DNA of 38,123 bases from Candidatus Thioglobus perditus (GTDB lineage Bacteria; Pseudomonadota; Gammaproteobacteria; PS1; Pseudothioglobaceae): positions 1 through 38,123 of the forward strand of contig PNQY01000030.1 in NCBI GenBank assembly GCA_002909145.1, given 5' to 3'. Shown here one piece after another: positions 28,885 through 34,198 of this stretch. Made by a program: the position numbers and the translations under genes. Position 1 is the stretch's first letter. The number at the start of each line of letters is the position of its first letter. The notes under the pieces were generated by a model. The model was not told where the DNA came from. It worked only from the letters and a program-made list of their open reading frames with translations, and ran no database searches.

Positions 28885-29364
28885 TTATAGTTTTGCACTC
28901 ATTTGTTTTTTTAGTTTTACTGTTGACTTATTAATGACTTCATCAAGGTCAGTCCAATAATAATCCATATTTACTACGCCTACAACTTTATCTAATGTTG
29001 CGCCATAATTGTCAACTATTAATACTGTTGGAAAAAAGTTTACTGCATATTTAAATGCAAGCTCATTATGCGACACCTCTTCATTATAGAAGTTATTAAC
29101 CTCATCAAAGCTATCAACATTAATATGCCTAATTATAACTTTATCATCATATTCTTTCAGATCGGCCATTGGCCCAATAACATTTTCCTTGACTTTCTCA
29201 CAAAATCCACAATTAGGAATGGAAAACATTATTAAAATAGGGATTTTATTTTTCCAAACTTTTTGCGAATCCATGAAAAAATTTTTTGCTGGTGGCAAAT
29301 TTAACTCATATGCAAAAGCAAAATTAGAAACAATTGCTAAAAGTAATAGATAAAATTTAAACAT
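28885..29364 (-). CDS. Exported thioredoxin-fold protein (CGFC)
   Basis: This is a periplasmic thioredoxin-like protein. The ATG at 29364 is chosen because AGG lies just before it and a signal peptide follows at once ([15 protein letters not shown]); a longer frame from 29427 would overlap hemC. It gives 159 aa. The redox motif is C52-G-F-C55 in [16 protein letters not shown], with the conserved cis-proline in [10 protein letters not shown]. The CGFC dipeptide is not the CPHC of DsbA or CGPC of thioredoxin, so its redox role is open; similar proteins are often called SoxW-like or DsbD-partner proteins. It is followed by argH (26 bp) and divergent from hemC by only 31 bp. Confidence 0.8.
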
Positions 29365-29395
29365 CGGCCTCATTTTAATACAAAGACTTATAAAT

Positions 29396-30310
29396 ATGAA
29401 CAAAACCCTAAAAATTGCAACACGCAAATCACCATTGGCATTATGGCAAGCGGAGCATGTTAAAGCTAGATTGGAAGCTCAACATCCTGCTTTAAATGTT
29501 GAACTAGTCAAGATGACTACAAAAGGTGATCAAATACTTAATTCTCCACTCTCTAAAATTGGTGGAAAGGGATTATTTATTAAAGAGTTAGAAATTGGAA
29601 TGATGGAAGGTGAAGCTGATATTGCTGTACATTCAATGAAGGACGTGCCATATGAAATTCCACAAGGTTTTGAGCTTGGTGCAGTTCTACAGCGTGAAAA
29701 TCCATTCGATGCTTTTGTATCTAACAATTTTAATAGTATTGATGAGCTGCCACAAAATGCCAAAGTAGGCACTTGCTCAATGCGCAGAATTGTACAACTC
29801 AAAGCTATAAGGCCAGATTTAGAGATTCTTGATTTACGCGGCAATGTAAATACTAGACTTAAAAAACTAGATGATGGTGAATATGATGCGATCATCCTTG
29901 CTTGCGCCGGACTTATTCGACTTGGTTTTGAAGATAGAATTAAACAGCAAATTCCACAGGAGCAAAGTATCCCTGCTGTTGGACAAGGTGCTGTTGGTAT
30001 AGAAATTCGTGCTAACGATAATGAGATTATGGATATTATCAAACCGCTTATTGATACACAAACCACATATAGAGTTACTGCAGAAAGAGCTATGAATGCT
30101 AGATTAGAAGGAGGGTGCTCGGTACCAATTGCAGGGTTTTCAACTATTGATGGCGAGCAAATTACATTAACAGGCTTGGTTGGTAATGTTGATACAGGGG
30201 TGATATTAAAAGAACAAGTGTCAGGCAATGTATCTCAAGCTGAGCAGCTTGGTGTTAAGTTGGCAGATTTATTAATTTCTTTAGGAGCTAAAGAAATCTT
30301 AAAAGGATAG
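29396..30310 (+). CDS. hemC: Hydroxymethylbilane synthase (porphobilinogen deaminase)
   Basis: It joins four porphobilinogens in heme and siroheme synthesis. It is 304 aa. It has [18 protein letters not shown], the loop [49 protein letters not shown], and the cofactor-binding C241 in [10 protein letters not shown]. Heme supply is needed for SoxA and the other cytochromes. hemD, the normal partner, does not follow; an unknown two-TM protein does. The ATG has no SD; TATAAA ends 1 bp before it. Confidence 0.97.
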
Positions 30311-30319
30311 AGGTTGGTG

Positions 30320-30994
30320 ATGTTGGGATTTATTGAGAGAAATTTTTTTGTTATTGTGCAAAGATTAGGATTGTTGTTTGCTTTTATTGCATTTGTTGCA
30401 GTTATAGCGCTTGGAATCTTAAGCTATGAAAAAATTAGCATTAAGCCAAGTGATAAAATAAAAACTCCTGTTGTTGAGTTTGCAAAATATCAAAATCCAA
30501 TTAGTGTTATTAGCAAAAAAGATGCTAATATCAATAAAAATGTTAAAAAATTCAAAAATAAAGAAAAATTTGAAAAAGAATTTGATGGTTATATAAGAAA
30601 AATTATAGCTAATTTGGAAACTTTACCTGATGATGTTATTGATAAAGATTATTTAAGAAGCTCGTTTAAGACTGAGGTAAAGATTAAATCTAACACTTAC
30701 ACAAGGGATTTAAAGCTCGCTTATGCTAGTTCATTAGCAAGACTTACAAAGCAAGTGGTTAATGTTGGTGGTAGCCAAGTAAATGTTGGTGATTTTCTTA
30801 AATGGCATGATAAAGAATTCGCAGAACAGGTTGACTCTCAAACTCAAAATAATTTATTAAAAATGGGCACAATTAAAGCACAAAAAGCAACAGGCTTTAT
30901 GATGCTTGGTATGACTATTGTTGCATTGGGAATGTTCATTATGTTTGTAATGATGTTAGCAATGCTTAGAATTGAAAGAAATACCAGGAAATAA
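30320..30994 (+). CDS. Two-TM membrane protein with a charged periplasmic or cytoplasmic domain (unknown)
   Basis: I do not recognise a family. The ATG at 30320 is preferred, with GAGG at 30310-30313 placed correctly; TTG at 30314 opens the same frame. It gives 224 aa. One TM helix lies near residues 15-37 (LGLLFAFIAFVAVIALGIL) and a second near the C-terminus (GFMMLGMTIVALGMFIMFVM). Between them is a lysine-rich, soluble, mostly helical region of about 140 residues. There are no cysteines or nucleotide motifs. It starts 9 bp after hemC and ends 2 bp before the oxidoreductase, so it is part of that operon. The position recalls hemX, but there is no sequence basis for that name. Confidence 0.8.
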   Translation: MLGFIERNFFVIVQRLGLLFAFIAFVAVIALGILSYEKISIKPSDKIKTPVVEFAKYQNPISVISKKDANINKNVKKFKNKEKFEKEFDGYIRKIIANLETLPDDVIDKDYLRSSFKTEVKIKSNTYTRDLKLAYASSLARLTKQVVNVGGSQVNVGDFLKWHDKEFAEQVDSQTQNNLLKMGTIKAQKATGFMMLGMTIVALGMFIMFVMMLAMLRIERNTRK

Positions 30995-30996
30995 CT

Positions 30997-31980
30997 ATGC
31001 AGGCGGTTGGTTATAATGGCGTTGAGTTTGTAGAATTTGAGCAAAATTTAGAAAATCCAACAGGATATGATTTATTGGTTGAGATTAAGGCCGTTGCCAT
31101 TAATCCAATTGATGTCAAAGTTAAATCCACAATTACATCGGCACAAGATACTCCAAAAATACTAGGCTATGATGCTTGTGGTGTTGTTCTTCGAATTGGA
31201 GAAAAAGTTTCATTATTTAAACCTGGTGACGAAGTATTTTATGCGGGCGACATAAGCCGTAGTGGTTCAAATGCAGACCAGCAATTAGTAGACGAACGCA
31301 TTGTTGGTTTTAAGCCGAAATCTCTAAACTTTGGAGAGTCTGCGGCTATACCATTAACAGCTATTACCGCATGGGAGTCCATATTCCATCGATTAAAAGT
31401 TAACTCTAATGACAAAGGAAAAACTATATTACTTATAGGCGCTGCTGGTGGGGTTGGGTCAATGGCAATTCAGTTTGCTAAATATGTAGCAGGGTTAAAT
31501 GTAATTGCAACAGCATCAAGAGACGAGTCTAGAGCCTGGTGTAAGAAAATGGGTGCAGATATGGTGCTTGAGCATCATAATTTAGATCAACAGTTTAAAA
31601 AAGACAATATTCCCGCGCCAGATTTTATTTTGTGCATGGGTGATACTGATGATTATTTTGTAACAATGGCAGATGTTATAAAACCACAGGGAAGCATTTG
31701 CTTGCTTGCAAATGCTACTGAAAAATATGATATCAACATATTAAAATCCAAAAGTATTACACTGATTTGGGAGATGATGTTTACTAGGTCAATGTATCAA
31801 ACCCAAGATATTCTTAAGCAACATGAAATCCTAAATGAAGTTTCTAGTTTGATTGATAATAAAAAGATTGTAACCACAATAACAAGCAGTCTAAGTCCTA
31901 TTAATGCGCAAACTATTGCCAAAGCTCATAATGCTATTGAGGATGGCAGTGTTATTGGTAAGCTAGTTATTACAAATTAA
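30997..31980 (+). CDS. MDR-family NADPH-dependent oxidoreductase (zinc-type alcohol dehydrogenase-like)
   Basis: This is a medium-chain dehydrogenase/reductase of 327 aa. The GroES-like part has VAINPIDVKVKS, LGYDACGVVLRIGEKV and FKPGDEVFYAGDISRSGS. The Rossmann part has the coenzyme motif LLIGAAGGVGSMAIQFAK. The catalytic zinc ligands of true alcohol dehydrogenases are not evident, so it is probably a zinc-free quinone/enone reductase-like enzyme despite the family name. The substrate is unknown. The ATG is 2 bp after the preceding stop and has AGGAAA upstream. Its end overlaps the convergent adaptor gene by 11 bp. Confidence 0.88.
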   Translation: MQAVGYNGVEFVEFEQNLENPTGYDLLVEIKAVAINPIDVKVKSTITSAQDTPKILGYDACGVVLRIGEKVSLFKPGDEVFYAGDISRSGSNADQQLVDERIVGFKPKSLNFGESAAIPLTAITAWESIFHRLKVNSNDKGKTILLIGAAGGVGSMAIQFAKYVAGLNVIATASRDESRAWCKKMGADMVLEHHNLDQQFKKDNIPAPDFILCMGDTDDYFVTMADVIKPQGSICLLANATEKYDINILKSKSITLIWEMMFTRSMYQTQDILKQHEILNEVSSLIDNKKIVTTITSSLSPINAQTIAKAHNAIEDGSVIGKLVITN

Positions 31981-32461
31981 TATATTCAATTACCATTAAC
32001 ACTTCTGGTGCATTTGCATTTGTAGTATTTCTTAAATTAGGTGTTGCTTTGATAGTTCCACTTAATGGTGATTTAATAGTGTATTTTTCAAGCTCTATTT
32101 CTTGAATTTTGACCTTAAGATTATGCGCATCAAGATCATGTTTTTTTGCGTCAAAATCAATTTTTGCAATATCTAGATCACGATGAGAGGCAACCATGCG
32201 ATCATATAATTCCTGTGTTTGGTTAAGATTGAGTTGAGCATCATCAAATGCTTGTTGTTTGGTTTTCCCTATCACCTGAAGCAGTTGCAGTTTAAGTTTT
32301 GCCTGTCTATCATCAATCTTAACAATCTCATCTCCTATGTTTACTTGTTTGCCAACAGTTTCTATATTCAAAATTTTGCCAGATACTTGTGGGTAAATAT
32401 CAAGTGCTGAGGCGCTAGTGCAAAGTAATAAGCTTAGTATTAAGTTTTTGTTAAACTTCAT
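31970..32461 (-). CDS. Minimal membrane-fusion (HlyD-type) periplasmic adaptor
   Basis: This is a short efflux-type adaptor, 163 aa where usual ones have 330-400. It has a signal peptide (ILSLLLCTSASA), the first lipoyl half (YPQVSGKILNIETVGKQVNI, GDEIVKIDD), an alpha-helical hairpin (about residues 52-128: KLQLLQVIG to IQEIELEK), and the second lipoyl half (YTIKSPLSGTIKATPNLR). It then ends: the beta-barrel and membrane-proximal domains are missing. The stop is clean, with no remnant beyond it, so this looks like a stable short form rather than a fresh truncation. Its start overlaps tolC-like by 11 bp, with AGGAGA as SD. It presumably caps the TolC-type channel, but no pump gene is near. Confidence 0.85.
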   Translation of the reverse strand: MKFNKNLILSLLLCTSASALDIYPQVSGKILNIETVGKQVNIGDEIVKIDDRQAKLKLQLLQVIGKTKQQAFDDAQLNLNQTQELYDRMVASHRDLDIAKIDFDAKKHDLDAHNLKVKIQEIELEKYTIKSPLSGTIKATPNLRNTTNANAPEVLMVIEYINL

Positions 32462-33698
32462 AATCTTCTCCTATAAGATAATGTAATTGCATTAATGTAA
32501 TTACATAGTCAAATTCATTTTCAGCTAGTTTTTTCTCACTGTCAGTGTAGTTAACCATAGCATTCCCAATATCACTTTTTATTTCCAACTCATAATTAGC
32601 GCGAGCCTTTTCTAAATATAAGTCACGATAATCAAGCTCAATAATTAGAGCTTTATGAATTTGTTGTAGTGATTTAAGTTTTAAGTAGTAGTCAAGCGCC
32701 ATACCAATAAGAGACTGCTGGTGTTGTTCAATTTGGAGCTGTTGTTGTTTAGCCTGAATTTGCAGTTGCGATATTTTGTTATCTTGTTTGGAGTCAGTGC
32801 CAAATGGCATTGATAGATTAATTCCAAGGCGCCATTTGCCATTTTTATCACGCTGATAAGCTTGCTCGCCGAGTCTTGCATTTGAGCTAAGCACAATACC
32901 TAAATTATCTTTTTCTTGAGAGATTTGCCTTTTTATAGATTTTAAAGATTGTTCAAGTTGTTTGAGTTTTGGGTTGTTGGTTAATTGTTTTTGGTAATGT
33001 TCAAATTCTGCTAATTTTTTCTCAAGTAGTTTTTTAAAGTCTGGCTTTACTACATCATCTGGGCGTTGTTCATAGTTAATGTTAAGCAATTGCGCTAAGT
33101 TTGCTCTAGTTTGAATTTGTTTAGACTCTGTCTTAATACGCTGAATTTGACTAATTTGAGTATTGGTTTGTTTTTCTAATAACTCCACTTCTGATGCTTG
33201 CTGTATGTCATAGTCATCCTTTACTCGTCCTTCACGAATAGCAGACATAGCAAGTTTTTCCAGTGCTGTTTCATAAGACATGTCTGCCAAAATAATATCA
33301 AAAAAACTACGCATAATATTAATGATTTTATTTTGCTGTAATTGTTGAAAAGATAAATTGGCATTACCAATACTCTCAAGTTGAGTATCTTTACCAATTT
33401 CAATATTTTGATCGTAAAGTGTTTTTTTAAGATAAACAAACCCGTGAGAATTGTTGGTGCCGGAGCTGTACTCACTTCGATTGGCAAGCTCTAAATCAAG
33501 CGTTGCCCGTGTATCGTATTGACTTTCCCAGTCATTAAGTTTCAGTTTGCTTTTATCAATATTAAGTTGTTGTTGTTTTTGGTCAAAGTTATATTTGTTT
33601 GCAATTTTTACAACATCTTTTAGTGTTAGAGGGTTGGGCAAATCTTGCGCCCAAGAAAGGCTGGAAAAAATAAACCCTATAAAGATTAGAACTCTCAT
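32451..33698 (-). CDS. TolC-family outer-membrane channel protein
   Basis: This is a 415-aa outer-membrane efflux protein with a signal peptide ending SLSWA-QDLPNP. It has long alternating helices typical of the TolC barrel/tunnel: LTLKDVVKIANKYN, the QQLNIDKSKLKLNDWESQYDTR repeat start, and the second repeat from LEQSLKSIKRQISQEKDNLG. It is trimeric in known relatives. Usual TolC-family proteins have about 420-490 aa, so this one is slightly short. It overlaps the thioredoxin gene upstream by 4 bp and the adaptor downstream by 11 bp, so all three are translationally coupled. The substrate is unknown. Confidence 0.88.
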   Translation of the reverse strand: MRVLIFIGFIFSSLSWAQDLPNPLTLKDVVKIANKYNFDQKQQQLNIDKSKLKLNDWESQYDTRATLDLELANRSEYSSGTNNSHGFVYLKKTLYDQNIEIGKDTQLESIGNANLSFQQLQQNKIINIMRSFFDIILADMSYETALEKLAMSAIREGRVKDDYDIQQASEVELLEKQTNTQISQIQRIKTESKQIQTRANLAQLLNINYEQRPDDVVKPDFKKLLEKKLAEFEHYQKQLTNNPKLKQLEQSLKSIKRQISQEKDNLGIVLSSNARLGEQAYQRDKNGKWRLGINLSMPFGTDSKQDNKISQLQIQAKQQQLQIEQHQQSLIGMALDYYLKLKSLQQIHKALIIELDYRDLYLEKARANYELEIKSDIGNAMVNYTDSEKKLAENEFDYVITLMQLHYLIGEDYEV

Positions 33699-34198
33699 CG
33701 GTTTCTGCGCTTATAGCGTACAAAATTTTCTTGTTTGTAGGCTTTTTCTGTCATATATTTAGCCAATAGTAGAAACTCCTGTTTGTTGGCAAAACCCGTT
33801 CGCCTAACAACTCTATTGCCTTCTAGGTCGAAAAAAGCTAATACTGGTGTTGCGCCAATACGATTGTGCCTTTTGGCAAAAGTTCTTTCCAAAGTATCGT
33901 TGCCATCAAAATCTATTAATTCTAGATTTGATTCGGTATTTATTTTGTAATTAAGAAAGTGAGATTTAAAGTAGCTAATAACTTCATCTTGGTTTAATAC
34001 TTGGCGCTCCATTTTTTGACAAAAAGGGCAGTCGTCCATAAAGAAAAATACAAATATTCCATCTTTATTAGCATCTTGGGCATCACCAAGGTTTTCGGAG
34101 TAGTCATTAAAATGCTGGTCAAACATTGCACTATTTGAAAATACCGGCAGAGTTGTAATTAAACCAATAATCAGAACAAGGTGTTTATGTATTTGCAT
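33695..34198 (-). CDS. SoxW-like periplasmic thioredoxin (CPFC)
   Basis: This is a 167-aa exported thioredoxin-fold protein with a signal peptide (LVLIIGLITTLPVFSNS). The redox site is C57-P-F-C60 in FFMDDCPFCQKMERQVL, followed by FKSHFLNYKINTES and the cis-proline region GATPVLAFFDLEGNRVVRRTGF. This is the pattern of SoxW and related thioredoxins that keep sulfur-oxidation proteins reduced. It is not in the sox operon but leads a unit with a TolC-type channel and a mini adaptor, overlapping the channel gene by 4 bp (ATGA). AAGGAG precedes the ATG. Palindromes lie upstream at 34232-34278. Confidence 0.85.
   Translation of the reverse strand: MQIHKHLVLIIGLITTLPVFSNSAMFDQHFNDYSENLGDAQDANKDGIFVFFFMDDCPFCQKMERQVLNQDEVISYFKSHFLNYKINTESNLELIDFDGNDTLERTFAKRHNRIGATPVLAFFDLEGNRVVRRTGFANKQEFLLLAKYMTEKAYKQENFVRYKRRNR

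Follow-up and report, generated by a model that had tools for sequence, protein, structure and literature searches.

A three-gene operon coding for a periplasmic thioredoxin, a TolC-type outer-membrane factor (TolC), and a short periplasmic adaptor, with no pump gene beside it, was identified in the window, defined here as the whole 38,123-nucleotide stretch of Candidatus Thioglobus perditus DNA that was analyzed. The set recurs more than chance would allow and hardly occurs outside genomes that carry genes for sulfur oxidation. The operon may encode a transporter-independent outer-membrane conduit that serves Sox-type sulfur oxidation, with DsbD-reduced thioredoxins keeping a sulfur cargo mobile. 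This preferred reading is tentative and is given somewhat less than an even chance. The features of the operon are as follows.

33695-34198, minus strand: thioredoxin, first gene of the operon; 167 amino acids, Thioredoxin_2, CPFC active site, cis-Pro TP, periplasmic
33695-33698, minus strand: 4-bp overlap of the thioredoxin end and the TolC start
32451-33698, minus strand: TolC-type outer-membrane factor; 415 amino acids, Pfam OEP, no cysteine
32451-32461, minus strand: 11-bp overlap of the TolC end and the adaptor start
31970-32461, minus strand: hairpin-only periplasmic adaptor; 163 amino acids, likely signal peptide, lipoyl domain, alpha-hairpin

All three open reading frames lie on the minus strand where the sequence-only reading had placed them, and their positions bear out its claim of a three-gene coupling through overlaps of 4 and 11 bp. 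The host genome is 1.59 Mb, and its nearest relatives are SUP05/Thioglobus-type bacteria. Next to the operon is an ADH-family oxidoreductase gene; at its opposite end are an ftsY-like gene and two genes for M16-type peptidases (the latter named by eye). A second secreted Thioredoxin_2 protein is encoded at 28885-29427 (minus strand), adjoining hemC at a distance of 4-5 kb from the operon. Related genomes, too, have a similar gene adjoining hemC. The region 30314-30994 (plus strand) encodes a 226-amino-acid protein that probably has two membrane segments and could not be assigned convincingly to any family; its gene is kept beside hemC and the operon across the host family.

The TolC protein belongs to the outer-membrane factors. 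It matches Pfam OEP (E 7e-16), the profile match extends over most of its length, and its profile matches E. coli TolC structures. The mature protein is free of cysteine in 89 of 97 cases, so the operon thioredoxin probably acts on something other than TolC. Redox gating of TolC or of the adaptor through cysteines is unlikely for the same reason, as both proteins are mostly Cys-free. An altered aspartate gate in TolC, suggested by inspection by eye, was dropped, since aligning the profile with E. coli TolC puts Asp at that position, with a 2-residue gap. A plasmid search for TolC gave no match.

The thioredoxin matches Pfam Thioredoxin_2 (E 3e-14), and its C57, P58, C60, and T117-P118 are unchanged across 38 relatives. 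It had been labeled SoxW-like, which is loose, because the operon subfamily is approximately 165-190 amino acids in length and scores at least 148 bits, while longer relatives of approximately 340-400 amino acids score 80-111 bits and form a separate group. Some of these longer proteins are encoded near soxB (G146 and G223). In the host genome, the operon is not in or beside the sox cluster; soxB is on contig C5 and the operon on contig C2. A distant relative of the operon thioredoxin, a 343-amino-acid secreted protein with two CxxC motifs, is encoded at L211:4396-5427 (G000:C176). Long proteins of this kind, whose genes lie close to soxB in other genomes, could represent SoxW proper.

The adaptor aligns to the NCBIfam RND_mfp model at positions 28-149 of 322 only, below the model cut-off. 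The window adaptor was modeled with AlphaFold from 61 sequences (pLDDT 91.5). In the model, one half of a lipoyl domain is followed by a helix of 36 residues (52-87), a helix of 33 residues (93-125), and the other lipoyl half, where the protein ends. The best structural matches found with Foldseek are AcrA chains, with the lipoyl domain and hairpin superposing at approximately 1.8-2.2 Angstrom over 145 columns. The model thus has the lipoyl domain with an inserted alpha-hairpin that is typical of adaptor proteins. The beta-barrel is absent from the window adaptor and from 31 other short adaptors. No membrane-proximal domain is present either; the window model stops after the lipoyl domain, and that of a 257-amino-acid relative stops after the beta-barrel. 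The model of this relative (pLDDT 93.5) consists of lipoyl domain, hairpin, and beta-barrel, and matches the AcrA core fragment 2F1M.

The tail that follows the lipoyl domain is bimodal in length, with approximately 29-36 residues in one class and 99-128 in the other (contig-cut sequences aside). The short-tail adaptors, which lack the beta-barrel, occur in the host family, Hydrogenovibrio, one Arcobacter, and a Thiohalomonas-like group. The 80-odd adaptors of the long class have a tail sufficient for a beta-barrel. Outside the host family, an adaptor is either short, with no beta-barrel, or approximately 255 amino acids long, with a beta-barrel and no membrane-proximal domain. The claim that the adaptor consists of the lipoyl and hairpin parts only is therefore correct for the window, according to the model, but not in general, as most relatives outside the family have a beta-barrel. 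The window adaptor represents the small extreme of a family whose complete members are all too short to contain the membrane-proximal domain of canonical adaptors. The features missing in general are a membrane-proximal domain (as judged by length and one model), a lipid anchor, and a linked pump. Repeated independent loss of the beta-barrel is not claimed; a quick TolC tree needs 3 changes, but the AU test does not reject a single short-adaptor clade (p-AU 0.78).

A lipobox was found in one of 114 adaptors. With a signal-peptide-like start and no lipobox, the window adaptor is probably a soluble periplasmic protein. When the RLS-type tip motif (RxxxLxxxxxxS), the part that binds TolC, is scored on alignment columns, 107 of the 114 adaptors retain Leu, 90 retain Ser, and 74 retain Arg. 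In most short adaptors, including that of the window, the R position is occupied by Q, and L and S are kept.

Within the host family, an adaptor of approximately 160-180 amino acids is present in 20 of 60 genomes, this genome included, and the gene order is identical in the carriers inspected. A recent truncation is rejected, since 19 other host-family genomes carry an adaptor of about the same size. That the operon is a decaying remnant of an efflux operon is highly improbable. Pseudogene fragments do occur in several host-family genomes of genus g2, but the frames are intact, the size is constant, and the tip motif is conserved across many genera.

A thioredoxin profile run over GTDB contigs gave at least 530 confirmed relatives. 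Among the best 80 of these, TolC is directly downstream in 75; four of the other five are on contigs that end soon after the thioredoxin, and the fifth (L143) has approximately 1.2 kb with no detected TolC. The adaptor follows in the best 80 wherever the contig runs past TolC, and in many of them a TlpA gene precedes the thioredoxin. An even sample of 232 Gammaproteobacteria contained 59 thioredoxin carriers, defined by a score of at least 148 bits. Outside the host family, TolC adjoins the thioredoxin in 51 of the 56 genomes fetched, and the adaptor follows in all of these except two that are cut by a contig end. Four low-scoring thioredoxins (G060, G210, G269, and G165) have no convincing adjacent TolC, and neither does G117. 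The set is therefore conserved, recurring in the family and across sulfur-oxidizing Gammaproteobacteria, and RND and ABC searches of 115 loci revealed no full-length adaptor with a pump near it in relatives. One locus is from Arcobacter, whose own genome is the only one among 150 of its class with a high-scoring copy. TolC/HlyD of Sulfurovum is induced on S0 (PMC10045233); this is not used as support here, since only the genome of the Arcobacter locus scores high in that class sample.

The link between the operon and sulfur oxidation is supported statistically. The 59 carriers of the even sample include 56 with soxB, 44 with dsrA, and 58 with either. Among genomes with neither gene, the thioredoxin is present in 1 of 126 (Fisher p 6e-24, not corrected for phylogeny). 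The odds ratio between carriers and non-carriers is approximately 150 for soxB/dsrA (58/59 vs. 1/126, likewise uncorrected for phylogeny). The association is little changed when the four low-scoring loci without TolC are excluded. The one sampled genome with the operon and without soxB or dsrA (G232, locus L177) is a fragmented assembly of 410 contigs, and the exception may reflect an assembly gap or another sulfur pathway. Within the host family, the adaptor is present in 20 of 47 soxB-positive genomes and in none of 13 soxB-negative genomes (p 0.003, with most of the 13 from one genus and no correction for descent). The remaining 27 soxB-positive family genomes have no intact adaptor, which makes the adaptor dispensable. 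Genus g3 (G002, G012, G020, G054, and others) has neither a true soxB nor the adaptor; its soxB matches are weak only, of a kind also seen in E. coli.

The absence of a pump gene, claimed for the window, stands there and extends to the relatives, as searches of 115 loci for RND and ABC pumps came up empty in 114. The exception (L066) is an RND gene approximately 3.5 kb from the operon and beside its own part-adaptor. The operon might still be part of a tripartite pump in which an unlinked RND, ABC, or MFS transporter recruits the short adaptor and TolC to expel sulfur or thiol compounds that are toxic. This is considered somewhat unlikely. The TolC gene often lies apart from the genes of its pumps, and the host genome encodes three full-length RND pumps, the third of which (C35) is beside typA and has no adjacent adaptor. 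EmrA-type MFS adaptors also do without a membrane-proximal domain (PMC4446572, PMC4158417). The operon adaptor, however, lacks the lipid anchor and the membrane-proximal domain, and in the short class the docking beta-barrel as well; each of the other two RND pumps comes with a full-length adaptor of its own, and 114 of 115 loci have no linked pump. The search for unpaired pumps thus did find one (C35), but it is adaptor-less in all family genomes inspected, with or without the operon, and it is not supported as a dedicated partner. RND genes with no adaptor or TolC, mostly beside typA, are family-wide (L079:5451-8498 in G000:C35, L225, L226, L227, L215, and L228), and G054 of genus g3 has two adaptor-less RND pumps in tandem.

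DsbD is encoded 17 bp after the adaptor in G010, a family outlier, and downstream of the operon in eight further loci; in the host genome it is elsewhere. At L216:712-2931 (G000:C39) is a 739-amino-acid DsbD that apparently has two N-terminal DsbD domains. The genes that recur at the flanks have a housekeeping character and change from lineage to lineage (for example hemC, ftsY, acylphosphatase, and cutA, assigned by eye except for acylphosphatase). The operon might instead secrete a periplasmic protein or peptide, with the thioredoxins acting on its disulfides; an adhesion or sulfur-binding factor that contains Cys would be an example. The presence of two periplasmic thioredoxins (TlpA and the operon thioredoxin) in many loci would suit the handling of thiol proteins, but this reading is improbable, with no recurrent cargo gene in the neighborhoods of the loci and flanks that are housekeeping-like and lineage-variable.

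The preferred reading, a transporter-independent conduit, would work as follows. The adaptor would be soluble in the periplasm, and its hairpins would dock tip-to-tip on TolC and open it, consistent with the largely kept RLS-type tip. Because the adaptor has no membrane-proximal domain, no lipid anchor, and here no beta-barrel, the lower end of the duct would open to the periplasm and not be seated on a pump, and flow would be downhill. The thioredoxin, together with TlpA in many lineages, would be kept reduced by DsbD. It would in turn keep sulfane-sulfur or thiol compounds, such as polysulfide, persulfides, and thiol carriers, reduced and mobile at the mouth of the duct. Sulfur would then leave the cell or be re-mobilized from extracellular sulfur. 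Precedent for opening by an adaptor exists, as adaptor binding is enough to open the outer-membrane factor in a leaky MtrE mutant, with neither energy nor a transporter, and the hairpins on their own bind the outer-membrane factor more tightly than the full adaptor does (PMC4446572).

We infer both a thiol or sulfane-sulfur cargo and the direction of its transport. The narrower proposal of an outer-membrane sulfur gate, in which zero-valent sulfur, polysulfide, or persulfide mobilized by DsbD-fed thioredoxins passes through a pump-free TolC duct opened by a soluble hairpin adaptor, is unlikely. In support of the conduit reading, extracellular S0 requires an outer-membrane route that is unidentified (PMC12285230), and Hydrogenovibrio, which carries the operon (L104, L130), forms extracellular sulfur globules by an 'unknown sulfur trafficking process' (PMC5733100). 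The operon is also carried by tubeworm symbionts (L155, L160). Tubeworm symbionts store sulfur inside the cell, so the operon is no simple marker of extracellular sulfur, and its presence there counts against pure export. The opposite direction, in which S8 or polysulfide chains are attacked by the reduced thioredoxin and sulfane sulfur enters the periplasm through the conduit for Sox/Dsr, is quite unlikely. The near-restriction of the operon to sulfur oxidizers and the DsbD link are in keeping with import, as is the need of periplasmic enzymes for access to extracellular S0 (PMC12285230). Against it, the sequence gives no direction of transport. Symbiont lineages receive dissolved sulfide, and the operon in such lineages also counts against import.

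How S0 gets through the outer membrane is a recognized question (PMC12285230), and the operon supplies an outer-membrane channel, a protein that probably opens it, and a reductant for thiols. If the conduit reading is true, TolC and an adaptor can function together with no pump; if the sulfur gate is true, the operon is one missing route for S0 across the outer membrane in sulfur oxidizers. The three- to four-gene set makes the sulfur-route question testable by deletion of one operon in a cultivable strain. The operon is in addition a sequence marker that tracks sulfur oxidizers.

The sequence-only reading knew of no described system of this composition, and no published description of the three-gene set was found in the open-access literature. 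The thiocyanate dehydrogenase cluster of Thiohalobacter and Guyparkeria comes closest, with thioredoxin-superfamily and TolC/CusC-like genes near each other in sulfur oxidizers, but it contains a CusA or HlyB-type pump and its thioredoxin-like protein has no Cys motif (PMC6504805). SoxW and DsbD-linked periplasmic thioredoxins share the Thioredoxin_2 fold, the CxxC motif, and co-occurrence with Sox, and differ in size and score as described above. BesA of Borrelia is likewise an adaptor that is missing a domain, but BesA lost the hairpin (PMC3807786), whereas the operon adaptor keeps the hairpin and misses the pump-side parts. EmrA-type MFS adaptors share the absence of a membrane-proximal domain; EmrA has a beta-barrel, a long coiled coil, and an MFS pump (PMC4158417), in contrast to the short hairpin and lack of a linked pump here. 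Tripartite efflux systems (AcrA-TolC, MacA-TolC, and MexJ) share the TolC fold, the lipoyl domain and hairpin (approximately 2 Angstrom to AcrA), and, for the most part, the RLS-type tip. Unlike them, the operon has no linked transporter, membrane-proximal domain, or lipid anchor, has no beta-barrel in the short class, and includes a thioredoxin. The parts belong to known families, and their pumpless combination appears to be new.
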